In this document: one piece after another, positions 15,996 through 37,509 of the stretch
Layout: the number at the start of each line of letters is the position of its first letter
How positions within the stretch are numbered: position 1 is the stretch's first letter
DNA from: Streptomyces spiramyceticus
Lineage (GTDB): Bacteria; Actinomycetota; Actinomycetes; Streptomycetales; Streptomycetaceae
Direction of reading: 5' to 3'
DNA: 64,000 nucleotides
NCBI RefSeq assembly: GCF_028807635.1
Contig: NZ_JARBAX010000001.1
Span: 2,638,001-2,702,000, forward strand
Translations under genes and position numbers: made by a program
Notes under the pieces: generated by a model
Told to the model about the DNA's origin: nothing
Seen by the model: the letters and a program-made list of their open reading frames with translations, nothing else
The model's database searches: none

Positions 15996-16172
15996 GGCCT
16001 CTTCGGCCGTGAACTCACCGGCCGCCGTACAACCCTTGCACCCCTCCAGTGGTCCTCTCTGCACCGAACGACACGTGTGTACGGGGATGAGAGCCCCCAA
16101 ACACGGTCGATTCGACCCACCGATTTCGGATGCCCACCGGCATCCGGCATGTCGCAGGAGAAGAAGACCCGC

Positions 16173-17618
16173 ATGCGCAAGCGCCTCCGTATCACCCTCG
16201 CCACCTCCGCCGCGGCCGCCCTCACCGGCGGTCTGCTCGTCGTCGGAGCGGGCAGTGCCGCCGCCGCGCCCTCCGGGCTGCAGGGCGACTTCAACGGCGA
16301 CGGCTACCGCGACCTCGCGATAGCCGCGCCCATCGCCAAGGTCGACGGCAAGTCCGGTGCCGGGTACGTCGCCGTCGTCTACGGCACCAGCAGCGGCCTC
16401 GACAAGTCCAAGCGCACCCTCATCAGCCAGGCCACCGCCGGGATCCCCGGAGTTCCGGAATCCGGCGACTACTTCGGGGACCGCATCACCGCCGGTGACC
16501 TCGACGGCGACGGCTACACCGACCTCGTCGTCGGCGTGCACGGCGAGCAGATCGGGAGCACCGGCGACTCCGGCGTCCTCACCGTCGTCTGGGGCGGCGC
16601 GACCGGTCTCACGTCCGGAACCGACATTTCGTCGCCGCTGCCCGAGAACCGGAACGAACTCGGCTGGGACGTCGCCGCCGGTGACTTCGACGGGGACGGC
16701 AAGACCGACCTCGCCGCCGCTAACATCGCCGCGCCCGAGCTGAACATTTTCAAGGGTCCCATCTCGCGCACCGGCGCGGCGGCCGCCCTCGTCGGCGTCG
16801 ACACGTCCAGCCAGACCGGCATCAACACGGACAGGATCGTCGCGGGGAACGTCACCGGCGACGGCGCCACCGACCTCCTGGTGATGGGCCAGCAGGAGAG
16901 CGGCGACGGGTACATCACCCGCAGCGTCCTCTACAAGGGCGGCGCGACCGGCCTCAAGGCGTCCGGCAAGCTCGCGGGCGGTTACGCAGCGGCCATCGGG
17001 GACGTCAACAAGGACGGTTACGGCGACATCGTCACCGGCAACTTCATGGAGAAGTCCACCGACGAGCCGAACGGCGGCCTCGGCGGCGCGGTCACCGTGA
17101 CGTACGGCAGCGCCACCGGGCTGTCCACCCGCACCCCGGTTCGTATCACCCAGGACACCGCCGGCGTCCCCGGCGCCGCAGAGCGGGGCGACCGCTTCGG
17201 GTGGAGCCTGTCCGCGGGCGACACCAACCGCGACGGCTACGCCGATGTCGCGGTCGGCGCGTCGTCCGAGTCCTTCGGGGGCAAGACGGCGGCCGGCACC
17301 GTCACCGTGCTGCGCGGATCGGCCACAGGCCTGACCGGCACCGGCTCCAAGAGCTTCTCGCAGGACACGACTGGGGTGCCCGGTGGAGCCGAGTCCCACG
17401 ACCAGTTCGGCGCCTCTGTACACCTCACGGACAGCAACGCCGACGGCCGCGCCGAACTGACCGCCGGTGCCTTCGCCGAGAACAGCGGCGCGGGTTCGGT
17501 CTGGCTCTTCAAGGCCGGCACGAGCGGTATCACCGCCACCGGTTCGACGACCTTCGGCTCCACGTCCCTCGGAGGCCCCTCCGGCCTGACGTACTTCGGC
17601 GACCGCTTCGCCAACTGA
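16173..17618 (+). CDS. Secreted integrin-like FG-GAP protein
   Basis: The protein has 481 residues from ATG 16173; AGGAGAAGAAG precedes it. ATG 16149 in frame is possible but gives a poorer signal peptide. After the Sec signal (LRITLATSAAAALTGGLL, cleavage near SAAA) seven FG-GAP units follow, as in the integrin alpha propeller. Calcium-binding loops are visible as GDFNGDGYRD, GDLDGDGYTD, GDFDGDGKTD, GNVTGDGATD, GDVNKDGYGD, GDTNRDGYAD and TDSNADGRAE. This completes a seven-bladed beta-propeller that acts outside the cell in binding. No enzyme motif is present. It has its own terminator. A broken relative is at 9419. Confidence 0.92.
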   Translation: MRKRLRITLATSAAAALTGGLLVVGAGSAAAAPSGLQGDFNGDGYRDLAIAAPIAKVDGKSGAGYVAVVYGTSSGLDKSKRTLISQATAGIPGVPESGDYFGDRITAGDLDGDGYTDLVVGVHGEQIGSTGDSGVLTVVWGGATGLTSGTDISSPLPENRNELGWDVAAGDFDGDGKTDLAAANIAAPELNIFKGPISRTGAAAALVGVDTSSQTGINTDRIVAGNVTGDGATDLLVMGQQESGDGYITRSVLYKGGATGLKASGKLAGGYAAAIGDVNKDGYGDIVTGNFMEKSTDEPNGGLGGAVTVTYGSATGLSTRTPVRITQDTAGVPGAAERGDRFGWSLSAGDTNRDGYADVAVGASSESFGGKTAAGTVTVLRGSATGLTGTGSKSFSQDTTGVPGGAESHDQFGASVHLTDSNADGRAELTAGAFAENSGAGSVWLFKAGTSGITATGSTTFGSTSLGGPSGLTYFGDRFAN

Positions 17619-17722: not shown

Positions 17723-18250
17723 ATGAGCAGCACACCTGACGGACGACCCATCCCGCCCATGAACGCGGACGAACGCACCACGCTGGAGAGCTGGCTCGAC
17801 TTCCACCGTGCCACGCTCGCCCTCAAGTGCGAGGGCCTGGACGACCGGCGGATACGGGAGGCGTCGGCCGCGCCCTCGTCGTTGACGCTGCTCGGGCTCG
17901 TGCAGCACATGGCCGAGGTCGAACGGAACTGGTTCCAGCGGGTGTTCGCCGGAATGGATGTCCCTGCGGTGTACGGCAAGGGGCAAAGCGCCGACGGTGC
18001 CGATGGCACCGACGGCGGGTTCGAGCTTGTCGACGGGCGGGGTATCGACGAGGCGCTGAGCATCTGGCGGGACGAGATCGCTCGTGGCCGTGAGATATGT
18101 GCCGGGCGGGCGCTGACCGACACCGTGCTGTTCGGCGGGCAGGAGATGAACCTGCGCTGGATCTTTGTGCACATGATCGAGGAGTACGCCCGTCACAACG
18201 GCCATGCGGACCTGGTGCGGGAGCGGATCGACGGCTCTGCGGGGGTCTGA
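17723..18250 (+). CDS. DinB-like four-helix protein (DUF664)
   Basis: The product has 175 residues from ATG 17723. The pattern [16 protein letters not shown] near residue 55 and [19 protein letters not shown] near residue 150 carries the three histidines that hold a divalent metal in the DinB/DUF664 superfamily. Proteins of this family in actinobacteria include mycothiol-dependent transferases, for example in thiol-linked detoxification, but the substrate of this member is unknown. It is cytoplasmic, with no signal or membrane segment. The gene stands alone and converges with the minus-strand gene at 18293. The family assignment is firm, the exact role is not. Confidence 0.85.
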
Positions 18251-18292: not shown

Positions 18293-19273
18293 TTACGTAC
18301 GGCAGCTGATTTTCATCTGGGCCGCTGCGTGGTGTGCGCCGACCAGGTCCTCGTCGCCCCAGTCGCGGCCCCGGTCGATCAATTGCACCGCGAAGGCGTC
18401 GCCCTTGACGTCATAGCTGCCGACGGAAACCAGGCTGCCCCGGTGGACGGTCTGGCGTACGCCGAAGGCTGCGTACGACGAACCGTTGTCGTCGGCGTCG
18501 GCGAGCACCCGGTAGAAGGTCGGGTTGCCCGCCACGTCGAGGTCGCGGCCGCTGTCCGGTACGTACACGGCCAGCGCGCACTGCTCGAAGCCGTCGCCGA
18601 CCGTCCAGGACCAGGTCGCGGTGTTGCCCCGGTCCCGGTCGGGGGCACCCGACATGGGGACTGCGGTGAACCGGCCGTCGCACGAAGTGCCTGTGTAGCC
18701 GCCGGAGTTCACGGTGTACCAGCCGGCGTCGCCGTTCTCGAAGCGGCCGAACTCCCGGTAGTGGCCGGAGCTGCAGCCCGGCCCCGCCCATGCGGTGTAC
18801 GACGGGTGCCGTGCGGGTGGGGGCGGCTTGGGAGGTGCCTTCGGCTTCGGCTTCCTGGATTTCTGCGGGGGCCGGGATGTGGCGGCGGGAATGCTCGCGC
18901 CGTCCGACGGTGGCGTCGTGTCGCCGATCGGGTCCGTCGGGCCAATCCTGGTCGGCACCCCGCCGGCTATGTCGTCGGGGTTGCCCGCAGTTCCGCTCGT
19001 ACCGCCACCGCCACGACCGCCGCCCTCACCGCCTCCGCCTGAGGCGGCCAGCAGGGTGGCCGCCGTGACCAGGACGGTCAGGGCGGCGACAACTCCCGTC
19101 GCCACCAGGGCCTTTCTGCCTCGCGAAAGGGTGGACAGGCGACCGGCCAGTGTCTCCCGGGCTATCCAGGCCCCGCTCGCCACCCGGCCGTCACCCGCGC
19201 CCACCCCACAGCCGGGGCAGACCATGCCCGGCAGCGCACCCCTGCGTCCGCCACCGCATCCCTCGCACACCAT
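18293..19273 (-). CDS. Membrane-anchored protein with N-terminal zinc ribbon
   Basis: The product has 326 residues; AGAAGG lies before ATG 19273. Two CxxC pairs (MVCEGCGGG and MVCPGCGVG) form a short zinc ribbon at residues 3-22. One membrane helix follows at about residues 52-77 (ALVATGVVAALTVLVTAATL). Then comes a Gly- and Pro/Lys-rich linker and an extracellular beta domain of about 165 residues with four cysteines (PGCSSGH, GTSCDGR, EQCALAV, KISCRT), probably two disulfides. The topology is cytoplasmic zinc ribbon, one TM and an outer domain. This is a common Streptomyces layout of unknown function. The next gene upstream, at 19439, belongs to the trypco2 unit and is on the same strand. 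Confidence 0.75.
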   Translation of the reverse strand: MVCEGCGGGRRGALPGMVCPGCGVGAGDGRVASGAWIARETLAGRLSTLSRGRKALVATGVVAALTVLVTAATLLAASGGGGEGGGRGGGGTSGTAGNPDDIAGGVPTRIGPTDPIGDTTPPSDGASIPAATSRPPQKSRKPKPKAPPKPPPPARHPSYTAWAGPGCSSGHYREFGRFENGDAGWYTVNSGGYTGTSCDGRFTAVPMSGAPDRDRGNTATWSWTVGDGFEQCALAVYVPDSGRDLDVAGNPTFYRVLADADDNGSSYAAFGVRQTVHRGSLVSVGSYDVKGDAFAVQLIDRGRDWGDEDLVGAHHAAAQMKISCRT

Positions 19274-19438
19274 GGAGACCTTCTCGCACCGTACTCACGG
19301 ATCACGCTGAACAGTCGGCCAGCAGCCACCAGCAGCAGCCACCGGCAGTCAAGGGGACCCACTATGCATGAGGCCGTCATTCCGGAACAGGGAATGCGCG
19401 GGATTGAACTTGGCTCTGAGTCAGTCCTCGTCTCGCAG

Positions 19439-19759
19439 TCAGTCTTCCTCCGAGTCGTCGCCCCCCACGTCCACCGGGCCGCCCCCGTCACGTCCGCGCG
19501 GTTCCAGCTCCACCGTGATGCGGTGCGTCGTGTCCTTCGTCCTCGTCGCACCCAGGTCCGCCGTCACCACACCGATCCGCAGGCCGCCCTTGCCGCTCGT
19601 CTCGCGCCGGATCTGGACGGCGAATTCAAGGTTCACCTTTCCCACCCTGAAACGCAGGCCGCTCTCCCTGCCCCGACGCTGAGCCTCCTCCAGTTCGGCC
19701 CTCACCTGACCGATCGCGTCGGCCAGACCCGCGCCCTGCAACTCGTCGTTCGTGTCCAT
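19439..19759 (-). CDS. trypco2-family protein
   Basis: The protein has about 106 residues from ATG 19759. An N-terminal helix (LADAIGQVRAELEEAQRRG) is followed by a beta-rich part: SGLRFRVGKVNLEFAVQI, then GGLRIGVVTADLGATR and HRITVELEP. This is the trypsin-co-occurring domain 2 (trypco2) pattern. The domain was defined because it occurs beside trypsin-like peptidases in predicted conflict or signalling systems. Here a trypsin-like protein is encoded divergently only 66 bp away, which supports the assignment and suggests a partner or regulator of that protease. There is no signal peptide, so it acts inside the cell. The start is not certain, since the upstream GGGGGG is 11 bp from ATG. Confidence 0.85.
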   Translation of the reverse strand: MDTNDELQGAGLADAIGQVRAELEEAQRRGRESGLRFRVGKVNLEFAVQIRRETSGKGGLRIGVVTADLGATRTKDTTHRITVELEPRGRDGGGPVDVGGDDSEED

Positions 19760-19811
19760 CGTGCTCACATCCCCCCGCTGCCGCCGAGGCCCCATTGTCA
19801 CCCCCCGCGAC

Positions 19812-19826
19812 TATGCTGGTACACCA
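19812..19826 (+). promoter_or_regulatory. -10 element suggesting a leaderless protease mRNA
   Basis: TATGCT at 19812-19817 fits the TAnnnT pattern of Streptomyces -10 boxes. It ends 8 bp before ATG 19826, and no ribosome binding site lies before that ATG. The transcript would start at or next to the A of the start codon. No clear -35 box is visible. Confidence 0.45.
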
Positions 19827-21658
19827 TGGGGGCGTCGATCAAAGAGACCAACTTCCGTACTGACCAAGAGACTTGGCGCGTCCGGCTGCGCACTGCCGAC
19901 CGCCGTGCGCAGGTCCTCGGAGCAGGCGTGCTGCTCGGCGACGGACTGGTGCTGACCTGCGCCCACGTCATCCGGATCTCCGGGACCGACGGCCACTGGC
20001 CGGCCGTGACCGTCGAGTTTCCCGGAATCGGCGGCGGCGAGAGCGGGCTGCGCGCGACCGTCGTGCCAGGCCACTGGGTGCCCCGCGCCGACGACCACAG
20101 CGGTGATCTCGCGCTGCTTCGGCTGGACGGGCCGCCGCCCGTCGCCACGCACGCCACCCTCCACCGGCTGCCGACCATTTGGAATCGCCGCGTCCACTTC
20201 GCCGGGTATCCGTCCGGCATCACCGGCGGCAAGTGGGCCGAGGCGCTCATCAAGGGGCCGGGAGGGCCCGGCGACGAATGGGTGCAGATCGATCCGGCCA
20301 CCGAGGCCGACACCCTCATGCGGCGCTTCAGCGGCGCCGGAGTCGTCGACAACCGCACCGGCCGCGTCATCGGGATCGTCGTCAGCAAGCTCGACTCCGA
20401 GCGCGAGGGCGCGCACTACCGGCACGGTTACATGATCCCGACCGGGACCGTCGTCAAGCACCTCGACCTCGTGCGCGAGCGCTGCGTCAGCGGTCGGCCC
20501 CCGGTCCCCGCCGCCTTCACCGCCGACCCCACCGCCCCGGCCCCCGACCGGGGTTTCGCCCGCTGGCTCACGCGTTGGCTCGCGGGCGAGGACGACATGG
20601 CCGACGTCGAGATCACTTTCGTAAGGGAAGAGGATCACGACGCCGCGCTCACGCTGCGCACCACGCTCACCCTTGCCGACCGCGAGCGGTCCCCCCGTAC
20701 GTCCACCGCCACGCCCGGTCGCGACAGGTCCAGCGGCGTGCCGCGCGCCGGCAGCCTCGACCTGGCCGTCGACGTCAGCGGCAAGACCCGCGCCCAGGTC
20801 GCCCAGGAGATCGCCGAGGGCATGGGCCTGGACGGGCCGGGACCCCAGCCGATGCCTGCGCGCATCGCGGCCGACGCCCTGCCGCTGACCGCCGTGGCGC
20901 GCGGGGTGGACGAGGCCGTTCAGCCGCTGGAGACCGTGGAGTTGCTGCACACACTCGTGCGGCGCGGGGGGCGGCTGCTGCTCGTCTTCCGCCGCCTCGA
21001 CTCCCCCGCCCTGCGCCGTACGTACGAGCTCCTCGACCAGGGGCGTGCCGAGCGCTGGCTGGATCGGATCGGCCGCCGCATCGGCGCTCTCGCCCATACG
21101 GAAGAACGCGTACGGGACCTCCGACGGCGCGCGGCGTCCATCGTCTCCCCGCTGCCGCCGCCCCCGCACTACGCCCAGGACCTGGAGCTCAAGGCGGTGC
21201 GGCTGGAGGCCGACCCCGGGCGGGGCACGGCGGGCTACCTCGCGAAGCTGTCGTACGTCGAAAGGACCGTGGAAACCGCCCTGTCGGAGGCGGAAGACAG
21301 TCACCGGCTCCTGACCCGCCGGCTCGCCCGCCACCAGGAGCTGCGCGGCCTTCTCGACGGCCACCAGGCACGCCTCGCCGACCACGGCCTCGCCGAGGCG
21401 GCGGCCTCGCTGCACCACGAGGCGCAGCGGCTGCTGACCGGCGGACCGTGCGATCCGGCGGTGGCGGAGGCGGCGGTCGAGCGGTTCGTACGGGCGGCCA
21501 GGAAGGCGCTCGATCAGGTCGGCCAGCTCGGTCAACTCGGTCATCCCGGTCAACTCGGTCAACTCGGCCAGCCCGGCCAGCCCGGCCAGCCCGGCCAGCC
21601 CGGCCAACTCGGTCAGCTCGGTCAGCTCGGTCAAGGGGAGACGGAGGGGAAGCCATGA
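19826..21658 (+). CDS. Trypsin-like serine protease with helical tail
   Basis: The protein has 610 residues. Residues 1-225 form a trypsin-like peptidase fold with the catalytic triad visible as His47 (LTCAHV), Asp94 (HSGDLALLRL) and Ser169 (RRFSGAGVVD). The serine loop lacks the usual GDSGGP and reads FSGAGV, as in many cytoplasmic trypsin-like proteins of conflict systems. There is no signal peptide. Residues 250-340 hold a beta domain with a trypco-like character, and 400-560 are helical. The C-terminus is a run of Gly-Gln-X triplets. The stop overlaps the start of the kinase gene (ATGA), so both are translated together. A role in cleaving a partner on a kinase or vWA signal is an inference. 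Confidence 0.85.
   Translation: MGASIKETNFRTDQETWRVRLRTADRRAQVLGAGVLLGDGLVLTCAHVIRISGTDGHWPAVTVEFPGIGGGESGLRATVVPGHWVPRADDHSGDLALLRLDGPPPVATHATLHRLPTIWNRRVHFAGYPSGITGGKWAEALIKGPGGPGDEWVQIDPATEADTLMRRFSGAGVVDNRTGRVIGIVVSKLDSEREGAHYRHGYMIPTGTVVKHLDLVRERCVSGRPPVPAAFTADPTAPAPDRGFARWLTRWLAGEDDMADVEITFVREEDHDAALTLRTTLTLADRERSPRTSTATPGRDRSSGVPRAGSLDLAVDVSGKTRAQVAQEIAEGMGLDGPGPQPMPARIAADALPLTAVARGVDEAVQPLETVELLHTLVRRGGRLLLVFRRLDSPALRRTYELLDQGRAERWLDRIGRRIGALAHTEERVRDLRRRAASIVSPLPPPPHYAQDLELKAVRLEADPGRGTAGYLAKLSYVERTVETALSEAEDSHRLLTRRLARHQELRGLLDGHQARLADHGLAEAAASLHHEAQRLLTGGPCDPAVAEAAVERFVRAARKALDQVGQLGQLGHPGQLGQLGQPGQPGQPGQPGQLGQLGQLGQGETEGKP
21521..21634 (+). repeat. 9-bp tandem repeats coding Gly-Gln-X
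   Basis: Twelve complete GGN-CAR-CYN-like units and a partial one encode GQL, GHP and GQP triplets. Neighbouring units are almost identical, especially the four GQP units, so copy number could vary by slippage without changing frame. Confidence 0.9.
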
Positions 21659-24084
21659 GGGCGTGTCCGCACCCCGGGTGCACCGGGCAGGTCACCGAGA
21701 CCGGGTTCTGCGATCTCACCGGCCTGCCCGTCGACGACGACGTAGCCACGGAGAAGACGGGCGGAGGGAAGGGTGAAAGGGGGCAGCAACAAGGGGGGCG
21801 CTCCCGCCCCCAGCAGTTCGACGTGTCCTCCGGCGGCGACCGCCTCATGGACCTGCCCCTCGTCGACGTCCCCGACCCCGCCCTCCTCGTCGAGCCCGTC
21901 CAGGACCAGCCCGCCTCCCACGTCATGCGCTGCGGTAACCCCGACTGCACCGAGCTCATCGGCGGCATGACAACAGAGGGCCGCTGCTCCTGCGGTACGC
22001 CGTACGCGCTCCAGCCCCAGCTGACCGGCGACGACGTACTCGCCGACCAGTACCGGGTAATCGGGCCCATCGCCCACGGCGGCCTCGGCTGGGTCTATCT
22101 CGCCAAGGACACCCAGCTCCACAACCGCCCGGTGGCCCTCAAGGGCCTGCGCAATCCGCACAGCGAGGTGGCCCGCGAGGTCGCGCTGCGCGAGCGGCGG
22201 CACCTCACCGACCTCAACCACAAGGACATCATCCGGGTCATCAACTACGCGACGCACCGCCCGTCCGGCACGGACTACATCGTGATGGAGTTCGCCGGCG
22301 GGATGGCGCTGCACCAGATTGCGGAGCGCATCGCGCGCGACGAGGAGCCGTTCGCCGGGATGCGGGTGCACGAGTTCGTCGTCAGTTACGGGATCCGGAT
22401 TCTCGACGCGCTCGGCTATCTGCACACGCACGAGCGCAAGGTGTACGGCGACATGAAGCCGGACAACGTCATGCACTGCGGCGACGGAATCAAGATCATC
22501 GACGTGGGCGGGGTACGGGAGTTCGGCGCCCCCGGCCCGTACACCGACCACTACAAGGGCCCTGAGGTCGAGCGGGACGGCCGGGCGTACCCCCAGTCCG
22601 ACCTCTACAGCGTCGGCAGGACCCTCCAGGAGCTGTCCGACGCCGCCCGCCACCCCGCCCCCGGGCTCGGCGCGGAGTCGCTGCGCCGGGCGCTGGCGCG
22701 GGCGACCGCCGGCGAGCCCAGAAAGCGGTTCGCGACGGCCGCCGAAATGTCGCTGCAACTGCGCGGTGTGATCCGCGAGTTACGGTCCCTCCGGCTCGGC
22801 ACGGAGACCTTCGAGCCGTCCCGCCTCTTCGAACCGGCGTCGGCCGCCCTCGACGGCGGCCTCGGCCAGGCCCCCGCCCTGGACTGCTGGGCGTACGGCA
22901 TCCACCGCCTTCCACTGAACGCCGCACGCCCTGCCCCCGACGCCGTAGCGGCGGGCCTGCCGGTCCCCAAGACGGACCCGGACGACCCCAACGCGGCCTC
23001 CCTGAGCCGGATTTCGTACGACGCCCCCGGCCTGCAGCAACTTCTCGCGGACTGGCCGCCGTCCGCCGAGCTCCACCTGCTGCGGTGCCGCCTGCACCTC
23101 GACCTCGCCCGCCGGGCCACGGGAGGACGCACCGGCCGCCGGGACGACGCCCGCTCCGAGCTCGGCCGCGCCCGCGACCTCCTCGGCACCATGGCCGAAC
23201 ACGACTGGCGCATCAACTGGCACGCGGGCCTGCTGCACCTCGCCGACGACCGGATCGCCGACGCGCGGAAGGAGTTCGACACCGTTTACGACGCGCTTCC
23301 CGGCGAGTACGCCCCCAAACTCGCCCTCGGCTACTGCTACGAACGGCTCGGCCGGCCCGACCGCGCCAGGCTCTTCTACGAGGCGGTGTGGCTGCGCAAC
23401 CACTCCATGGGCAGCGCCGCCTTCGGTCTCGCCCGGATCCATCTCGCCCGGGAGGAGCGCGACAAGGCGCTGGCCATCCTGGAGCACGTACCGAAGGACT
23501 CGCGGCACCGCACGGCCGCGCGGACCGCGATCGTACGGATCCTTGCGGGCCGGCGGCCGCCGCGCGGTGCGCCGCCGCCGCTGGAGTCCATCGTCGCCGC
23601 ACTCGCCCAAGTCGTGCGCCTGGGCGAGGAAGAAGGTTTGACGGACCGTCATGCCCTCCTGCGGCTGGAGACGCACATCCGGGAAGTGGTCCTCGACTGG
23701 GTCTGCGCGTCAGGGCCGGGCGGCGCGGACGGGCAGGCAGAGCGTCGGCTGGCACAGCTCAGCGAACGGATACAGGACGAGCACCTCACCGAGAACCGGC
23801 TGCGCAGGCGCCTGGAGGAGTCGTACCGGTCCCTCTCCGAACAGGCCGGTGACGCGCGGGCGCACGCACTGCTCGATCTGGCCAACGGGATACGGCCACT
23901 GCGGTGGACACACAAGGAGCACACATGGCTCGGAGCGGCGCAGAAGATGCGGAACACGTGGAAGGCCCCTCAAACGCAGGAGCAGGCGCCGGGCCGAGCG
24001 CGGGAGCGAGCGCAAGGGCAAGCGCAGGAGGGGACACGGGAGGGAGCGCAGGAGCAACCGCGGGAGCCGTCACCCTCGAAGTGA
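21655..24084 (+). CDS. PknG-like Ser/Thr kinase with zinc ribbons and TPR
   Basis: The protein has 809 residues; ATG 21655 follows GGAGGGG and overlaps the protease stop. Cys pairs at the N-terminus (RACPHPGC, FCDLTG) and near residues 90-115 (RCGNPDC, RCSCGTP) form zinc ribbons like the rubredoxin part of PknG. The kinase domain covers about residues 130-370: glycine loop GPIAHGGLGWVY, Lys in VALKGL, catalytic loop YGDMKPDNVM and IDVGG in place of DFG, both as in PknG. About residues 415-660 form TPR-like helices. The last 50 residues are Gln/Glu/Arg-rich and are encoded in DNA that also encodes the start of the vWA protein. In mycobacteria PknG is driven by the GlnH/GlnX sensor pair; similar genes follow here. 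Confidence 0.9.
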   Translation: MRACPHPGCTGQVTETGFCDLTGLPVDDDVATEKTGGGKGERGQQQGGRSRPQQFDVSSGGDRLMDLPLVDVPDPALLVEPVQDQPASHVMRCGNPDCTELIGGMTTEGRCSCGTPYALQPQLTGDDVLADQYRVIGPIAHGGLGWVYLAKDTQLHNRPVALKGLRNPHSEVAREVALRERRHLTDLNHKDIIRVINYATHRPSGTDYIVMEFAGGMALHQIAERIARDEEPFAGMRVHEFVVSYGIRILDALGYLHTHERKVYGDMKPDNVMHCGDGIKIIDVGGVREFGAPGPYTDHYKGPEVERDGRAYPQSDLYSVGRTLQELSDAARHPAPGLGAESLRRALARATAGEPRKRFATAAEMSLQLRGVIRELRSLRLGTETFEPSRLFEPASAALDGGLGQAPALDCWAYGIHRLPLNAARPAPDAVAAGLPVPKTDPDDPNAASLSRISYDAPGLQQLLADWPPSAELHLLRCRLHLDLARRATGGRTGRRDDARSELGRARDLLGTMAEHDWRINWHAGLLHLADDRIADARKEFDTVYDALPGEYAPKLALGYCYERLGRPDRARLFYEAVWLRNHSMGSAAFGLARIHLAREERDKALAILEHVPKDSRHRTAARTAIVRILAGRRPPRGAPPPLESIVAALAQVVRLGEEEGLTDRHALLRLETHIREVVLDWVCASGPGGADGQAERRLAQLSERIQDEHLTENRLRRRLEESYRSLSEQAGDARAHALLDLANGIRPLRWTHKEHTWLGAAQKMRNTWKAPQTQEQAPGRARERAQGQAQEGTREGAQEQPREPSPSK

Positions 24085-25424
24085 GCCAGCAGCCCTACGT
24101 CTCCGCCGAGCGCGGCGCCGAGGGCGGGACGCGCATGTGCGCAGTGGTGACCGTCACGGTGGCCCTGGGGCCGGGCGGGCCGGGAGCGCCCGCCCCCGCG
24201 TCGCCCGCCAGGGCCGAGGTCCTGCTCCTCGACTGCTCCGCGTCGATGGGCTACCCGCGCGACAAGCTCTGGGCCGCCCAGGACGCGGCGGCGGAAGCGG
24301 TACGTGCGCTGCCCGACGGCACGTACTTCGCGATCGTCGCAGGACGCCACACCGCCGAGCTGGTGTACCCCACGCCGTCGCAGTCCCTCGCCCGCGCCGA
24401 CGCGACCACCCGCGAGGAGGCCCTGGAGGCCGTCGCCCGCCTCGTCCCCAGCGGCGGCACCGCCATCGGCAGCTGGCTCGCGCTCGCCCGCGAGCTGTTC
24501 GGCCACGAGCCGCTCGGCCAGCGCCCCGGGGCCGCGGTCCGGCACGCCCTGCTCCTCAGCGACGGCCGCAACGAGCACGAGGAGCGCAACGCGCTCGAAG
24601 CCGAACTGGCCGCCTGCGCAGGCACATTCACCTGCGACACCCGTGGCATCGGCGAGGACTGGGACCCCGACGAACTGCAACTGGTCGCCGACAGCCTGAA
24701 CGGCCGCGCCGACGCCGTACGCGACCTCGACGAACTCCCCGGCGAGTTCCGCGCCGTAACCGCCGAGTCGGCCGCCCGCACCCTCACCGGTCTGCGCCTG
24801 CGCCTCACCCACCGCCCCGGCAGCGCCCCGCTGACCGTCCAGCAGGTCCACCCCACGCGCCGCGACCTCCTCCGGGAAGCGGTGACGACGGGCGAACGGT
24901 GCCTGGAATTCCGTACGCCGCCGTGGGGCGAGGAGACCCGGGAGTACCTGGTGTGCGTGGCCGCCGCCCGTACGCCGCAGGAGCCGGTCGACCGGGCGCT
25001 GTGGCTGGCCGACCTGAAGGTGGTCCAGGAACCGGACGCGGAGGCCCCGCATCCCCACCTCCCGCCCGCCAGACCCGTGCTGGTCCGCTGGACGCGCCAT
25101 CACGACCTCTACAGCCAGTACGACCCCAAGGTGGCGCACTACGCCCACCACGACGCCCTCGTGCGCGGCCTCGAAGAGGGCCGCGCCGCCCACCGCGCGG
25201 GCGATGTGCCGCGCGCACTCGCGGCGTGGGGCGAGGCCGTGCGCCGCGCCCACGCCATGGGCAACCAGCCCATGCTGCAGCGCCTCGGCGACGTCGTGCG
25301 CATCATCGACGCGGAGACGGGCGAGGTGGAGGTATGCCCCGACATCAGGCCCCTCGACATCAATTCGGCGATGGTCCTGCGGGCGCACAGCACAATGCTG
25401 CCACCGCCGAGGAGCCCCAAGTGA
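23925..25424 (+). CDS. vWA-domain protein
   Basis: The protein has 499 residues. ATG 23925 has a strong ribosome site (AAGGAG, 5 bp), inside the kinase gene, giving a 160-bp overlap in different frames. The first 50 residues are Gly/Ala/Ser-rich. The vWA domain covers about 95-290 with a complete MIDAS: DCSASMG, Thr in PSGGTAIGSW and Asp in LLLSDGRNE. The second half contains a beta domain and a helical C-terminus (RAHRAGDVPRALAAWGEAVR) that looks like a TPR pair. No signal peptide is present, so it should act in the cytoplasm as a scaffold or metal-dependent adaptor. Its place between the kinase and the membrane sensor suggests that it links the two. Confidence 0.88.
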   Translation: MARSGAEDAEHVEGPSNAGAGAGPSAGASARASAGGDTGGSAGATAGAVTLEVSQQPYVSAERGAEGGTRMCAVVTVTVALGPGGPGAPAPASPARAEVLLLDCSASMGYPRDKLWAAQDAAAEAVRALPDGTYFAIVAGRHTAELVYPTPSQSLARADATTREEALEAVARLVPSGGTAIGSWLALARELFGHEPLGQRPGAAVRHALLLSDGRNEHEERNALEAELAACAGTFTCDTRGIGEDWDPDELQLVADSLNGRADAVRDLDELPGEFRAVTAESAARTLTGLRLRLTHRPGSAPLTVQQVHPTRRDLLREAVTTGERCLEFRTPPWGEETREYLVCVAAARTPQEPVDRALWLADLKVVQEPDAEAPHPHLPPARPVLVRWTRHHDLYSQYDPKVAHYAHHDALVRGLEEGRAAHRAGDVPRALAAWGEAVRRAHAMGNQPMLQRLGDVVRIIDAETGEVEVCPDIRPLDINSAMVLRAHSTMLPPPRSPK

Positions 25425-26470
25425 GCCGTGCATTACGTCACTTCTGGAGCTCGGCCACCGGCGACAACGGCATCAGCACCGTCGACTACCTGCGCCGTCA
25501 GCTCCTGTGGCTGCTCGCCCTCACCGCGATCGGCGGCGCGGCGCTCTTCGGCGCGTACGACGTCGTGCACCGCGACACCGCCGCGATCCGCGACCGTACG
25601 GGACCCGCAGTCGTCGAACTGGCCAGGGCGCACACCCTGCTCCGGCAGGCCCACGCGACGGCGGAGGAGCACATCGTCTACCTCACGAAGAACCGGGACC
25701 GGCCCGACATTCTCAGCCTCGGCGAGGAGTACGGCAGCCTGCTCACCGAGGCGAGACAGAGCCTCGACCGGGCGCAGCGCACCGGCGCCCTGGACCGGGG
25801 CGACCGGCAGACGCTGCGCATCGTGTCCGGGCTCGTCGACGGGTACGCGAACCGGATCGACGGGGCCTGGAAGCAGTACGGCAAGCCCGAGTTGAGCCGC
25901 GCCAACCTCTCGTACGCGAAGACGATGATGTACGCCGAGAAGTCCGGCGTACTCGACCGGATCACCAAGCTGCAGAAGAGGCAGAGCGCCGCGCTCGACC
26001 GGCACGAGGACTGGGGCACAGCGCCGCTGCTGGCCTGGCCGGCCGCGATAACCGCCTGCCTGCTGCTCGGCGTACGGCTGGTGGGCACGCAGGTCTTCCT
26101 GCGGCGGCGCTTCCGGCTGCGGCTGAGCATCCCGCTGGCCGCGGTGACGCTGTTGCTGGCCGCGGTGCCGGTGCTCGCGTTCGGAACGTGGCAGGCCCAT
26201 GCGTGCCAGGCGGCGGTGCAGGACGTCGTCGGACTGCTGGAGCCTGCCGGGAAGGCGGCGGCCCCGGCACTGTCCCGGCAGGACACGATCGACGAGGTCG
26301 AGGCGAGGATGGCCGAGGCCGTGCGGGAGAGGGACGCCGGGACGTGGGCCCGGGTCACGGCGTTCATTCCGCCGGCGGGCCTGCTGATCGGAGGAGTCAT
26401 CGCGTGGACGCTCCAGTCGCACCTGGCCGAGTACGCCGTCCCGCGCACGAGGGGTGGCGTACGCCGATGA
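25421..26470 (+). CDS. Four-TM sensor-like membrane protein (GlnX-like)
   Basis: The protein has 349 residues; GTG 25421 follows GGAG and overlaps the vWA stop (GTGA). There are four membrane helices: near residues 28-50 (LLWLLALTAIGGAALFGA), 200-222, 230-253 and 307-328. Between TM1 and TM2 lies a helical outer domain of about 150 residues, resembling the four-helix bundle of chemoreceptors (ELARAHTLLRQAHATAEEHI); a second outer helical piece follows TM3. No kinase or HAMP domain is obvious. In mycobacteria the four-TM protein GlnX transmits a signal from the lipoprotein GlnH to PknG. Topology, position and partners fit that role here. The sequence similarity itself cannot be tested by eye. 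Confidence 0.8.
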   Translation: MSRALRHFWSSATGDNGISTVDYLRRQLLWLLALTAIGGAALFGAYDVVHRDTAAIRDRTGPAVVELARAHTLLRQAHATAEEHIVYLTKNRDRPDILSLGEEYGSLLTEARQSLDRAQRTGALDRGDRQTLRIVSGLVDGYANRIDGAWKQYGKPELSRANLSYAKTMMYAEKSGVLDRITKLQKRQSAALDRHEDWGTAPLLAWPAAITACLLLGVRLVGTQVFLRRRFRLRLSIPLAAVTLLLAAVPVLAFGTWQAHACQAAVQDVVGLLEPAGKAAAPALSRQDTIDEVEARMAEAVRERDAGTWARVTAFIPPAGLLIGGVIAWTLQSHLAEYAVPRTRGGVRR

Positions 26471-27720
26471 AACGCACCGCAGGTGTTGTCCGTACGGTCG
26501 TCGCCCTGTGCCTGCTGGCCGGTCTCGCCCTCTCGGCCTCCGGCTGCGCGGAGGAGCCGAAGCCGAGTGTGAGCGTGCTGGGGCCGTGGACCGGTGACGA
26601 GGAGGAGAGCTTCGAGAAGGTGCTGAACGAGTTCCGCAAGACGGGTGTGGACGTCGACTACGAGGGCACCACTTCCCTGCGCGAAACCCTGGTCGCCCAG
26701 GTGCAGGCCGGGTCGCCGCCCGACATCGCCGTACTGAACAGCGTCGGCGAACTCACCGAGTACGCGCACGACGGCGAGCTGATCCCGCTCCCGGACGCGA
26801 TACGCGAACGCTCGCCGGCGCCCTGGGCGCCCGAACTGACCGTGGGCGGACGCAAGAACACGTACTGGACGCCGGTCAAGGTCGACCTCAAGAGCGTGGT
26901 CTGGCACTACACGGACCGATCCGCGGGGAAGGGCGCGTGGTGCCTCGGCATGGGCTCGGGCGCGACGTCCGGCTGGCCGGGCACCGACTGGATCGAGGAC
27001 ATCCTGCTCCAGCGCTCCGGCCCCGCGGTGTACGAGCAGTGGGCGACGGGCGAGCTGTCCTGGGAGAGCGAGGAAGTGCGCGACGCGTGGGAGACGTGGG
27101 GCCGCATCATCACCGCCGAGGGCGGCCGGGCCGGGGCGGCGGCCCTGCGCAACGGCTTCGAGGGCAACGACGGCAAGGGCCTGCTGAAGCGGAAGGGTGA
27201 GTGCGTGCGCGAGCACCAAGGCAGCTTCGCCCGACGGCTGTACGACCAGGACGTCCGCTTCACGCCGAGCGCGAAGGCGGTCGGGGGTCTGGCCAACGAG
27301 CGGGGCGCGTACGAGGTGTCCGGGGACATGGCGGCGATGTTCCGCGACAGCGGGAGCGCGCGGGAGCTGCTCACGTTCCTCACGGGGGACGCGGCGCGCG
27401 AGACATGGGCGGGCATGGACGAGCGCAGCCGGCCGTTCTTCCCTGTGTCGGTGGGGCCGTACGGCGATGCCTGGGCCAACCGCGCTGTCGACCGTGCGCT
27501 GACGGGCGCGAGGCGGCTGTGCCTGGATGCGTCGGATGTGATGCCGACGGGGGTGCGGGGGGCGTTCTACCGGGCGGTACTGGAATTCCTCACGGCGCCG
27601 GGGGACGAGGAGCTCCTGACGGGGCTGCTGGATCAGCTGGAGCACGAGGCGACGCGGCAGAGGGAGCGGGGGGCGGGGCACGTGCCGTCTGTTTGCGCGG
27701 CGCCGGCGGGGGGCGAGTAG
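26467..27720 (+). CDS. Solute-binding lipoprotein without transporter
   Basis: The protein has 417 residues. ATG 26467 overlaps the stop of the membrane protein (ATGA). The lipobox LSASGC gives a lipid-linked Cys near residue 27. The mature protein is an extracellular solute-binding protein of the sugar type: FEKVLNEFRKTGVDVDYEG, then QVQAGSPPDIAVLNSVGEL, and a C-terminal lobe with WPGTDWIEDILL and ANERGAYEVSGDMAAMF. No ABC permease or ATPase gene is near. The gene closes an operon with a membrane sensor and a kinase, so it most likely delivers a ligand signal rather than a nutrient. The ligand is not known. Confidence 0.88.
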   Translation: MKRTAGVVRTVVALCLLAGLALSASGCAEEPKPSVSVLGPWTGDEEESFEKVLNEFRKTGVDVDYEGTTSLRETLVAQVQAGSPPDIAVLNSVGELTEYAHDGELIPLPDAIRERSPAPWAPELTVGGRKNTYWTPVKVDLKSVVWHYTDRSAGKGAWCLGMGSGATSGWPGTDWIEDILLQRSGPAVYEQWATGELSWESEEVRDAWETWGRIITAEGGRAGAAALRNGFEGNDGKGLLKRKGECVREHQGSFARRLYDQDVRFTPSAKAVGGLANERGAYEVSGDMAAMFRDSGSARELLTFLTGDAARETWAGMDERSRPFFPVSVGPYGDAWANRAVDRALTGARRLCLDASDVMPTGVRGAFYRAVLEFLTAPGDEELLTGLLDQLEHEATRQRERGAGHVPSVCAAPAGGE

Positions 27721-27819
27721 GGGAACCGCGCCTGCGGACTAAGGCGGGGGGCGGCGCGGCACCTGCCATAGGATCCCGCAGAGATCAGTGATCATTCGAT
27801 CCAACGAGGGGGAACTTCT

Positions 27820-28746
27820 ATGTCCTTTGACCGAATCAGCCGCCGCGGTTTGCTGACCGCCACTGCGGGCGCGGGGGCCGCAGTGATCGCCGGCTCGGCG
27901 GCGGGAGCAGCCTCGGCTGCCGAGGTTCCGCCGCCGAGCCCGTACCACACCAGGCTTCCACACCAGATAGAGGCGGAGTCGCTGATCGACTACCTGCGGA
28001 TGCGTCCCTGGAGCGACGGCGCCAACCGCTACAAGACGGCAGGAGAATTCCCCGACGAGAACTCCTCGGTCGTCTGGGGCGCGCCCGGCCACCCGGAGCA
28101 GTTCTCGGCGTTCGCACAGTGCTCGTCGTTCATCACCCTGGTCCTGCAGCGGGCCTACGGCACCGGGACGGCGTACGGATGGGCAACCAAGGAGTACTTC
28201 AGCCAGCACTTCAATACCGAGGCCGGCAAGCTCTACCCGACGGCCGAAAAGTTCCGTGAGGGCTTCGCGAACGCTGCGAACGTCCCCCATTTCACGGCGG
28301 TCACCAAGCCGGTCAACCTGCGTCCCGGAGACCTCGTCGCCCTGGACTACGACGCGGTCACCACCAGCGAGCCGTACACCGGACACATCGTGATGATCCG
28401 GGAACGCAAGGGGACATGGAGCTCGCCGGTGGACAGCGAGGTCGGCACCGATGTCGTCCCCTACGTCTTTGACATCATCGACTGCACCAGCAACCCGCAC
28501 GGCAACCCCGCCGCCTCCGAGACCGCCGAGGCCACCTACCGCGGCTTCCCCGACACCCGCATCGAGGAGACACCCGGCGGGACTCCTGAGTGGACCGAGC
28601 ACAACGGCGTCGGCTACGGCCACATGGTGTTCTACGGGGACGGCACCACGAACCTCTTCGCCGGCTACCGCTGGGGCGTCAACTCCTCCACCGTCCACAA
28701 GGTCACCGCACGCCCGATCGCTGCGGCCCGCGTCTACCTCGGCTGA
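27820..28746 (+). CDS. Tat-exported protein with NlpC/P60-like core
   Basis: The protein has 308 residues; GAGGGGG precedes ATG 27820. The N-terminus (RISRRGLLTATAGAGAAVIA) is a twin-arginine signal peptide. The mature part contains a Cys in AQCSSFITLVLQRAYG, at the beginning of a helix, and a His in YTGHIVMIRE in a beta strand. This order and spacing (Cys helix first, His strand about 100 residues later) agrees with NlpC/P60-like cysteine peptidase folds, with RPGDLVALDY between them. The match is by motif only and the family remains unassigned. An export via Tat suggests a folded enzyme. It lies alone, directly before the remains of an integrase. Confidence 0.7.
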   Translation: MSFDRISRRGLLTATAGAGAAVIAGSAAGAASAAEVPPPSPYHTRLPHQIEAESLIDYLRMRPWSDGANRYKTAGEFPDENSSVVWGAPGHPEQFSAFAQCSSFITLVLQRAYGTGTAYGWATKEYFSQHFNTEAGKLYPTAEKFREGFANAANVPHFTAVTKPVNLRPGDLVALDYDAVTTSEPYTGHIVMIRERKGTWSSPVDSEVGTDVVPYVFDIIDCTSNPHGNPAASETAEATYRGFPDTRIEETPGGTPEWTEHNGVGYGHMVFYGDGTTNLFAGYRWGVNSSTVHKVTARPIAAARVYLG

Positions 28747-28782: not shown

Positions 28783-30023
28783 CGTTCGAACGCGAAGGCG
28801 CCATCTATCAGCGCAAGGACGGATGCTGGGAGCCGTCAGCTACGTGCTCGCCGCCGATGGCAGCCGCAAACGCGTCCGCGTCTACGGCACCACCCGCAAG
28901 AACGTCGCCGACAAACTCGCCGAGAAGATCAGCGACAGCAACCGCAGCCCGCCTGTGGCGATGGCCGACAGTACGGTGGGCATGTACGTCGCGTACTGGC
29001 TGAACAGCGTCGCTATCCACCGGCTGCGGGAGAACACCCACGCCCGCTACGCCGCTTCTATCCGCCTCCACCTCAATCCCGGCCTCGGCGCCAAGAAGCT
29101 CGCCCGGCTCACCGCCCGCGACGTGCGCACCTTCCTCGACGGGCTCGGCACCACCTGCCAGTGCTGCGCCCAGGAACGGGACTCGGTTCGGCGGTCCTGC
29201 TGCACCATCGGCCAGTGCTGCGCAAAGCGGCTGTCGCCGCTGACCGTGACGTATGTCCACGCGGTCCTCAAGTCCGCCCTGGAACACGCGCTCCGCGAGG
29301 ACGAACTGCCGCGCAATGTCGCCCGGAACGTCAAGACCACCGCGCCTCGCCCCAGACGATTCCAGCCCCTCACCGCACCCGAGGCCCGGCAGTTCCTCCG
29401 GAAGGCCAACGGCGACCGGCTCCATGCCCTGCACGAATTCGCTCTGCGCACCGGACTCCGCAAAGGCGAACTCCTCGGCCTCCACCGGGAAGACCTCGAC
29501 GGCGGCACCGCCAGCATCCACCGCTCCCTCCAGCCACCCGCACCGGCAGCCTGACCATCCTGCCCACCAAGACCCGCGCCTCCGAACGACGCATCGCCCT
29601 CCCCACTGGATGCACCAACTCCCTCAAGCTCCACCGGGAACGACAGCAGGAAGAACGTCAAGCCGCCTGCACCGGCTGGATGGAATACAGCCTCGTTTTC
29701 ACCGCCCCCACTCGACCCCACCCGCCGCTTCCGCAGCCTCCTCCACCGCGCTGGGCTCCGGATGATCCGCTTCCACGACCTACGCCACTCCACCGCCACC
29801 CTGCTCCTGGAGCAAGGCGTCGACCTCGTCGTGATCAAGGAACTCCTCGGCCACGCCCACATCGGCGTCACCACCGGCGTCTACGCCCACGTCCGACTCC
29901 GCCTCCAACATCAAGCCATCAACACCCTGGGCGACGCCCTCGGCACGGACAACGACGCCACTCACGACCCACCCGCCACAGCGGCCGTCCTTGACGTTGC
30001 CGTCACCGTTGCCGTCAAGGACC
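28783..30023 (+). pseudogene. Tyrosine recombinase, frameshifted
   Basis: The N-terminal piece EGAIYQRKDGCWE has no start codon and is cut at the left. After a frameshift near 28835 the SAM-like core-binding domain follows (VSYVLAADGSRKR, NTHARYAASIRLHL), then the start of the catalytic domain with the first Arg in LRTGLRKGELLGLHRED. The frame changes again near 29545 and near 29745. The end reads FHDLRHSTATLLLEQGVDL (catalytic His and Arg) and LGHAHIGVTTGVYAHV with the nucleophile Tyr. All catalytic residues are thus visible, but at least three frameshifts stop production. It is a dead phage- or ICE-type integrase. A CX2C-rich insertion (CQCCAQERD) is normal in the Streptomyces family. Confidence 0.85.
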
Positions 30024-30026
30024 TCA

Positions 30027-30058
30027 GAAGCCCCACCGAACACGCTCGGTGGGGCTTC
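30027..30058 (+). terminator. Terminator after the dead integrase
   Basis: Perfect 12-bp stem GAAGCCCCACCG (30027-30038) and CGGTGGGGCTTC (30047-30058) with an 8-nt loop, followed by AT. Confidence 0.8.
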
Positions 30059-30182
30059 ATCGGCGGTGTTGGAACTCCCAGTTGCCCGGAGCTACCGAGA
30101 GCTAAACGCCATTCGCTCGAGAACCCATGCGGGCCAAGGCGAACTCCGCACAGTCCTTCCGTGAGCCTTTCGGCTAGGTCAC

Positions 30183-30578
30183 TTAAAGATCATACGGGTA
30201 GAGCTGAATTTCGGGAGCCCGGAAAGAAATGAGATCCTCCACGGGAAGCTCCGACCTTCGGTTTGGGATTTCAATAAGGAGGATGTCCGACCCTACCCTG
30301 ATCTCTACGACCGAATCATCGCCATCGTCGAATCTGACTACTACGCCCGTAATGAGGGCGGCAGACTCCGCCCCGGCGACCTCCGATATGGAGGTAACGC
30401 CCGGAGGGACTGCTGTCCACCCTGCGACCTCTTCCGGAACCTCGATCTCGACATCGAATTGACCCACCTCGGCGGGATTCGACCCCATCCAGCGGCCAGA
30501 CGCGATGCCAGACTCGCACCTGAAACGCACGATCCCTTGCGAAGGGGATAGGACCTGCAGAACTTCCACTCTCATCAT
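30183..30578 (-). CDS. Putative immunity protein of the RHS toxin
   Basis: The product has 131 residues from ATG 30578. The start overlaps the stop of the RHS gene by 4 bp (ATGA), so the two are translationally coupled. The protein is small, acidic and beta-rich (VEVLQVLSPSQGIVRFRCES, VVVRFDDGDDSVVEIRVGS) with no signal or membrane segment. It does not match a family that I can recognise. Position directly behind the toxin tip, small size and acidity fit an immunity protein that binds the basic toxin domain in the cytoplasm. This is an inference from context. Confidence 0.7.
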   Translation of the reverse strand: MMRVEVLQVLSPSQGIVRFRCESGIASGRWMGSNPAEVGQFDVEIEVPEEVAGWTAVPPGVTSISEVAGAESAALITGVVVRFDDGDDSVVEIRVGSDILLIEIPNRRSELPVEDLISFRAPEIQLYPYDL

Positions 30579-37381: not shown

Positions 37382-37466
37382 TCCTTGATCAATCCTTTTC
37401 GGATCAGCGCTCATCGGCACAGCCGTGAGGAGCATGCACGGGAACATCAACAAACACAGGCGAGCG

Positions 37467-37501
37467 GTGGGGCGGGCCAAAGTGTTCTGCGCCCGCCCCA
37501 C
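37467..37501 (-). terminator. Hairpin between the LamG and RHS genes
   Basis: GTGGGGCGGGC (37467-37477) and GCCCGCCCCAC (37491-37501) form a perfect 11-bp stem, 9 bp after the stop of the LamG gene and 85 bp before the RHS start. It may reduce transcription into the toxin gene. Confidence 0.7.
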
Positions 37502-37509
37502 CTCTCTGG

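Follow-up and report, generated by a model that had tools for sequence, protein, structure and literature searches.

An apparent rewired paralogue of the streptomycete PknG operon combines genes for a binding lipoprotein, a GlnX-like membrane protein and a PknG-like kinase with a gene for a trypsin-like protease

Described relatives of the unit

In mycobacteria and corynebacteria, the GlnH-GlnX-PknG pathway consists of a binding lipoprotein, a membrane protein with four transmembrane (TM) helices and an ectodomain of four helices, and a soluble kinase of the PknG type that has a tetratricopeptide repeat (TPR) domain, all co-encoded. The published model of this pathway rests on contacts yet to be shown (PMC9769921, Fig. 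10 legend; this and the papers below are cited from extracts of their text). The TPR domain of PknG has been proposed to meet GlnX (PMC8546545), and PknG-linked binders are predicted to recognise amino acids (PMC6069109). Here we describe a unit of six genes at positions 19439-27720 of a 64,000-nt stretch of the 7.08 Mb genome of Streptomyces spiramyceticus (assembly GCF_028807635.1, contig NZ_JARBAX010000001.1, 2,638,001-2,702,000; the whole stretch is called the window). A Trypco2 gene on the minus strand is followed by five plus-strand genes running away from it, in the order trypsin-like protease, PknG-like kinase, von Willebrand factor A (vWA) protein, four-TM protein and binding lipoprotein (the binder). 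The unit shares all of the components of the pathway named above. It differs in having a binder of the SBP_bac_1 instead of the SBP_bac_3 family, a remote four-TM protein with a short second ectodomain, a rotated gene order, and the added trypsin, Trypco2 and vWA genes. On sensing its ligand, the described pathway phosphorylates an OdhI/GarA forkhead-associated (FHA) protein; mapping placed no FHA gene within the unit. As far as searched, the unit is conserved and has apparently not been described; it amounts to GlnH-GlnX-PknG in a sugar-type form, joined to an intracellular trypsin.

Other described systems resemble parts of the unit. In the XylFII-LytS xylose sensor (5XSJ, arrangement as told in PMC9769921) and the CuaD-CuaS cellobiose sensor, whose cellobiose binder CuaD serves as sensor (PMC10384115), a sugar solute-binding protein (SBP) likewise acts on the extracellular domain of a membrane protein. 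LytSN of 5XSJ was the first VIA-align match of our four-TM model, a likeness of fold and arrangement only, and the output of those sensors is a two-component system, whereas here a separate PknG-like Ser/Thr kinase is encoded. In the ternary VMAP/MoxR-vWA conflict systems (PMC7159879), too, a trypsin-like peptidase neighbours Trypco2 and a vWA protein is encoded, but no AAA+ domain was found in the proteins scanned here, and a kinase, a GlnX-like protein and a binder are present instead. That eLife paper names Trypco1/2 and their trypsins, and its main text does not contain the word PknG; Trypco is used as an adaptor beside MoxR systems in PMC10907252. No description of the unit was found in the open-licence literature of PubMed Central, and the extract of PMC12321487 shows nothing on it, which agrees with an earlier annotation made from the letters of the window (the sequence-only reading) that had taken this extended form to be undescribed.

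Homology to the PknG operon and to GlnX

The host genome also has an ordinary PknG locus (L002) with genes for GlnX, GlnH, a helical protein, PknG (rubredoxin and TPR), PP2C, vWA and FHA. This seven-gene operon, glnX-glnH-helical protein-pknG-PP2C-vWA-FHA, is found in identical order in the host and in 12 of 12 fetched genomes (L145-L156); it is longer than the three-gene mycobacterial operon, and its helical protein was found in 30 of the 31 genomes searched. Over two stretches the window kinase shares 38% identity with the genome's canonical PknG, and the two vWA proteins are 36% identical over 454 columns. The C-terminal helical (HEL-like) domain of the protease, at about residues 474-577, matches the helical protein encoded just upstream of pknG (L002:8959-10308; 40% over 104 aa, E 3e-13), with profile comparisons of 96.5% and 97.1%. 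Because kinase, vWA protein and protease C-terminal domain all match operon counterparts, the unit is, judging from sequence, a paralogue of the streptomycete operon that has been rewired. The sequence-only reading had regarded vWA and protease as an extra output of the pathway. For the two together this is not borne out: the trypsin domain is new, as are Trypco2 and the sugar-type binder, but the vWA protein is inherited from the PknG operon, and so is the helical end that the protease carries.

The rewiring can be read from the layout. The helical protein has had its N-terminal part replaced by the trypsin domain and the middle region of the protease, PP2C and FHA have been lost, the binder has been exchanged, and the sensor genes come last in the unit and first in the canonical operon. 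In three loci (L033, L035 and L103) the two arrangements lie side by side, the unit directly adjoining canonical PP2C-vWA-FHA genes. This adjacency fits an origin by tandem duplication of the PknG operon, as we infer. Relatives of the canonical PP2C and FHA genes were not found in 115 of 118 binder-bearing stretches, many of which end at contig ends, and those in the remaining three belong to the canonical operon next door.

The individual proteins bear out this picture. The kinase scored 168.3 bits against PknG_TPR (cut-off 27) and 72.8 bits against Pkinase (cut-off 31.7), and its catalytic K163, D266 and D283 are each kept in 92 of 92 sequences. Two cysteine pairs are visible, though the PknG rubredoxin model PF16919 remained under its cut-off (14.6 versus 28.5 bits), and for this reason we term the protein a PknG paralogue and not PknG itself; corynebacterial PknG is likewise without a rubredoxin domain (PMC8546545). 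Its closest relative on the kinase tree is from Streptomyces sp. ISL-98 (98%). The vWA protein reached 58.7 bits against VWA_3 (cut-off 27), and 52 of 71 vWA rows, that of the window included, keep every residue of the metal-ion-dependent adhesion site (MIDAS; D-x-S-x-S, T, D), as previously read for the window. Trypco2 and the protease scored 98 bits (cut-off 24.2) and 45.6 bits against Trypsin_2 (cut-off 27.6), respectively. The protease triad H47, D94 and S169, also rightly read before, is almost invariant, being kept in 69/70, 70/71 and 70/71 of the family sequences having a residue there. No signal peptide is visible by eye on protease, vWA protein or kinase, which would place all three in the cytoplasm.

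No significant match to the four-TM protein was obtained in the local Pfam scan, which took in eight proteins (18293-28746). The NCBIfam model of GlnX, NF058618, matched it with 42.2 bits, short of the cut-off of 250, compared with 493.9 bits for the genome's own GlnX. Comparison with GlnX by hhalign gave probabilities of 96.2% and 97.7%, against a maximum of 35.9% for shuffled and 3-4% for reversed controls, and PF28326 is listed for both families. In the AlphaFold2 model (AF2; predicted local distance difference test, pLDDT, 87), ectodomain 1 is formed by four helices (about residues 45-196), the second ectodomain is much shorter than that of GlnX, and an EY pair lies near the C-terminus. 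The protein is a remote GlnX homologue with four TM helices and a four-helix ectodomain, and with the kinase it upholds the relation to GlnH-GlnX-PknG that had been proposed from the sequence.

The binder, in contrast, is unlike GlnH. It matched SBP_bac_1 with 42.3 bits (cut-off 26) and not SBP_bac_3, the family of the genome's own GlnH (76.1 bits). Its AF2 model (pLDDT 90.5) found mostly sugar SBPs in Foldseek and VIA, and the family alignment gives the motif ATSGWPGTDWIEDILLQ. Because the modelled fold is of the SBP_bac_1 sugar type, the ligand is expected to be a carbohydrate rather than aspartate or glutamate. The lipobox pattern matched in 19 of 33 cases, a figure to be read with care as the pattern both misses and over-calls. 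None of the 58 BPD_transp_1 matches in the genome lies inside the window, and no permease was found near the binder in 118 loci by a home-made model of limited sensitivity, which was built from 6 of 20 fetched loci and matched one frame in L002, a locus with two permeases by Pfam. The solute-binding lipoprotein and the lack of a neighbouring ABC permease, both noted earlier, stand. None of the outcomes that the sequence-only reading had named as contrary to it (unlinked genes, a membrane protein without the GlnX fold, an ABC permease partner encoded with the lipoprotein elsewhere) was seen, although a permease at another site in the genome may borrow this binder.

Conserved linkage, natural fusions and the vWA protein

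Relatives were compared in a genus set of 38 loci, found via the four-TM protein, and a named set of 80 loci with the nearest binders. Neither is a random draw, at least 12 loci are common to both, and the named set, being the best 80 of at least 540 binder relatives, is biased towards the window's binder. The four-TM protein occurs in 38 of 121 Streptomyces genomes of the genus sample; this is a floor, and the count becomes at least 41 of 121 when loci with weak matches are added. Trypsin, kinase and vWA adjoin the binder and a weak four-TM match in L120-L122, and only the binder was seen in L123 and L124. At E <= 1e-70 the binder is found in 41 of 147 genomes of the order sample. Identity to the window's protein ranges from 19 to 96% for the four-TM protein and from 38 to 91% for the binder. 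A phylum-scale count with the binder profile (64 of 296) was not taken as membership, because the profile also matches transport SBPs at about 1e-35 to 1e-50; L120-L124 are five of these matches. Members with the full order come from Streptomyces, Actinacidiphila, Kutzneria, Solihabitans, Amycolatopsis and Streptosporangium.

Gene order was counted only where 7.5 kb or more lay upstream of the binder (31 loci in the genus set, 64 in the named set). The order trypsin, kinase, vWA, four-TM protein, SBP is kept in 22 of the 31 and 42 of the 64 loci. A trypsin::kinase fusion lacking vWA accounts for 5 and 6 loci, and a minimal kinase, four-TM protein, SBP form for 4 and 13. The three exceptions in the named set are L094 and L111, with runs of N where the missing gene is expected, and L091, with the binder alone. 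The genes are linked more than by chance, as their treatment as one unit had supposed. Opposite-strand Trypco2 accompanies 13 of 27 (genus set) and 18 of 49 (named set) trypsin-bearing loci with that upstream length, and 0 of 4 and 0 of 15 of those without trypsin.

The four-TM gene adjoins the binder in 78 of the 80 named loci, and a single open frame spans both in L026 and in six of the named loci, which gives 6 distinct sequences. In these frames 8-24 residues separate the profile matches, and the hydrophobic stretch of the binder is a likely fifth TM helix; possible ATG/GTG starts lie between the halves in L086 and L093 and in none of the other four shown. Trypsin and kinase share one open frame in 5 genus-set and 7 named-set loci (10 distinct sequences). 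The 4TM::SBP fusion arose at least twice among four rows on the tree, and the trypsin::kinase fusion at least twice on the kinase tree (one origin in Streptomyces, one in a Pseudonocardiales metagenome-assembled genome). By the usual argument from fusions, these natural joinings support physical contact within two pairs, the binder and the four-TM protein, and the protease and the kinase. They thereby support the contacts modelled for the pathway, and offer ready-made single-chain constructs for testing them. In L066, the kinase of a minimal form lies inside a 1046-aa open frame in which about 170 residues precede the kinase match; trypsin was not found there.

Presence of the vWA gene follows the state of the trypsin. 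Where trypsin is free-standing, vWA is present (22/22 in the genus set; 42/43 in the named set, the exception L111 being an assembly gap); where trypsin is fused to the kinase, vWA is absent (5/5 and 6/6); and where trypsin was not found, vWA is also absent (4/4 and 14/15; L094 has a gap at trypsin, and L091 is also without the kinase). The HEL-like domain is likewise missing from the fused proteins, that of L047 among them. Since, assembly gaps aside, vWA is absent only where trypsin has been fused to the kinase or lost, this result suggests that vWA and the HEL-like domain couple the protease to the kinase and become dispensable once both are covalently joined. On the kinase tree the vWA/trypsin state changes six times, with four independent pairs on well-supported branches (p 0.125); both traits coincide in all 88 rows as coded, so the test counts independent pairs only. 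The tree is a 'quick' one with a single canonical PknG as outgroup and long branches meeting at the root, and was used solely to count architecture changes. It was built without duplicates, kinases of <450 residues or loci with little upstream sequence, and the gapped L094 was kept uncounted.

Across the family, the HEL-like domain and the vWA MIDAS occur together in 43 rows, neither occurs in 14, MIDAS alone in 3 and the domain alone in 0. We rejected this co-occurrence as a docking hint of its own, as 13 of the 14 rows with neither and the 3 exceptions share one clade and represent one or two events; the 14th row, L100, is broken into several frames. That clade (L036, L037, L039, L063, L065 and relatives) keeps the full order, with a protease lacking the HEL-like domain and a vWA protein that has lost the serines and threonine of its MIDAS. 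Loss of the domain alongside a mostly broken MIDAS in one full-order clade, as one or two events, fits coupling through vWA and the HEL-like domain.

Proposed mechanism and alternatives

We consider it probable, with moderate confidence, that a sugar-type binder signals through a GlnX-like relay and a PknG-like kinase to a cytoplasmic protease within a rewired PknG-operon paralogue. This reading draws on the genes themselves, their conserved linkage, the homology to the PknG operon, the natural fusions, the match between vWA and free trypsin and the failure to find an adjoining permease, together with the sugar-type fold predicted for the binder. The relay architecture is well supported. As to signal direction, ligand and output, the membrane-anchored binder would sit on the four-helix ectodomain of the four-TM protein, a docking with which the LytSN fold match of the ectodomain and the 4TM::SBP frames agree. 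The signal from its predicted carbohydrate would cross through the membrane helices and reach the TPR domain of the kinase in the cytoplasm, and the kinase would control the trypsin-like protease. The vWA protein, as an adaptor, would keep the protease in the kinase complex together with the protease's own helical C-terminal domain, and Trypco2 may be a regulatory partner of the protease.

A bolder version can be put forward only tentatively: that extracellular sugar gates the cytoplasmic protease, and that binder, relay, kinase and protease are assembled at the membrane as one complex, held by vWA. In this version the natural fusions would present each half of the complex as one chain, and the absence of vWA from trypsin::kinase fusions would define a vWA role that holds for the seven-gene PknG operon as well. 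The vWA and helical proteins are highlighted as unexplained standing parts of that operon. More broadly, some three in ten of the sampled Streptomyces species seem to carry a copied and rewired version of a known nutrient-sensing kinase pathway, so that an extracellular sugar-binding protein could control an intracellular protease. The binder family would extend the PknG pathway from amino acids to sugars, and a Ser/Thr kinase relay would be linked to an intracellular trypsin in antibiotic-producing bacteria.

If the unit were a metabolic regulator only, a sugar-tuned copy of the pathway with trypsin and vWA as accessories, then the kinase should phosphorylate a GarA/OdhI-like FHA protein encoded elsewhere. 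The PknG-like kinase and TPR domains and the minimal form, which mirrors the three-gene pknG-glnX-glnH set, are consistent with this. On the other hand, the 115 of 118 binder-bearing stretches without canonical PP2C/FHA relatives, even with many ending at contig ends, and a trypsin triad too nearly invariant for a dispensable factor, speak against it, and we regard it as a possible but less probable account.

Rather unlikely, in our judgement, is a conflict or cell-suicide system in which trypsin and Trypco2 are a toxic effector, as postulated for multicellular bacteria, triggered when binder, four-TM protein and kinase sense envelope damage or a competitor product. Trypco2 and trypsin-like peptidases have been named as parts of predicted conflict systems (PMC7159879), and the patchy occurrence and wide divergence of four-TM protein and binder described above count in its favour. 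However, none of the eight proteins scanned has an AAA+ domain, PADLOC yielded general-type kinase matches and one weak protease match, gene order and catalytic residues are kept instead of effectors being swapped, and the kinase core persists without trypsin. An ordinary sugar importer, whose lipoprotein would serve a permease pair with genes at another site and lie beside the kinase genes without meaning, is very improbable: the fold is that of a typical sugar SBP and streptomycete sugar importers can share one ATPase, but the close pairing and repeated fusion of binder and four-TM protein, and the permease searches of the window and the 118 loci (the latter of limited sensitivity), argue against it.

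The favoured relay is encoded by the genes of Table 1. All six lie where the sequence-only reading had put them, each but the four-TM gene being borne out by Pfam; the bounds stand overall, with corrected starts for trypsin (ATG 19826) and vWA (GTG 24081). The overlapping gene ends it had noted are 4-nt ATGA/GTGA overlaps at all four plus-strand junctions (21655-21658, 24081-24084, 25421-25424 and 26467-26470). A promoter scan, of a kind that suits streptomycetes poorly, found no sigma-70-like promoter in 19200-28000.

Table 1. Genes of the unit, in window coordinates
Product	Position	Strand	Evidence
Trypco2 protein, divergent from operon	19439..19801	-	Pfam PF19631 E 3.2e-28; likely start ATG 19795
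Trypsin-like protease, C-terminal helical domain, repetitive Gly/Gln/Pro tail	19826..21658	+	Trypsin_2 E 1.6e-11; conserved triad
PknG-like Ser/Thr kinase, N-terminal cysteine pairs, PknG-type TPR	21655..24084	+	PknG_TPR E 2.5e-49; Pkinase E 3.9e-20
vWA protein, complete MIDAS	24081..25424	+	VWA_3 E 9.5e-16; 36% to canonical operon's vWA
Four-TM GlnX-like membrane protein	25421..26470	+	NF058618 E 5.7e-11 (below cut-off); hhalign; AF2 model
Orphan sugar-type solute-binding lipoprotein, lipobox ASGC	26467..27720	+	SBP_bac_1 E 1.2e-10

The coding sequence carries tandem repeats at the ends of two genes, of 9/27 nt (Gly-Gln-Leu/Pro) in the protease gene (21508-21634) and of 12 nt in the kinase gene (23975-24067). 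Adjoining Trypco2, 18293-19273 (-) encodes a zinc-ribbon protein that has one TM helix, an extracellular domain and no Pfam match; its relatives (E <= 1e-20) occur in the close-relative loci L003/L041, L040, L042 and L045. Further upstream are genes for an FG-GAP repeat protein (16077-17618, +) and a mycothiol-S-transferase/DinB protein (17723-18250, +). Downstream, a phage-type integrase is split over two frames at 28823-30232 (+), with an N-terminal SAM-like domain and the end of a catalytic domain, and a 2382-aa open frame at 30575-37723 (-) appears by eye to be RHS/YD-repeat-like, with a HINT-like stretch near its end.

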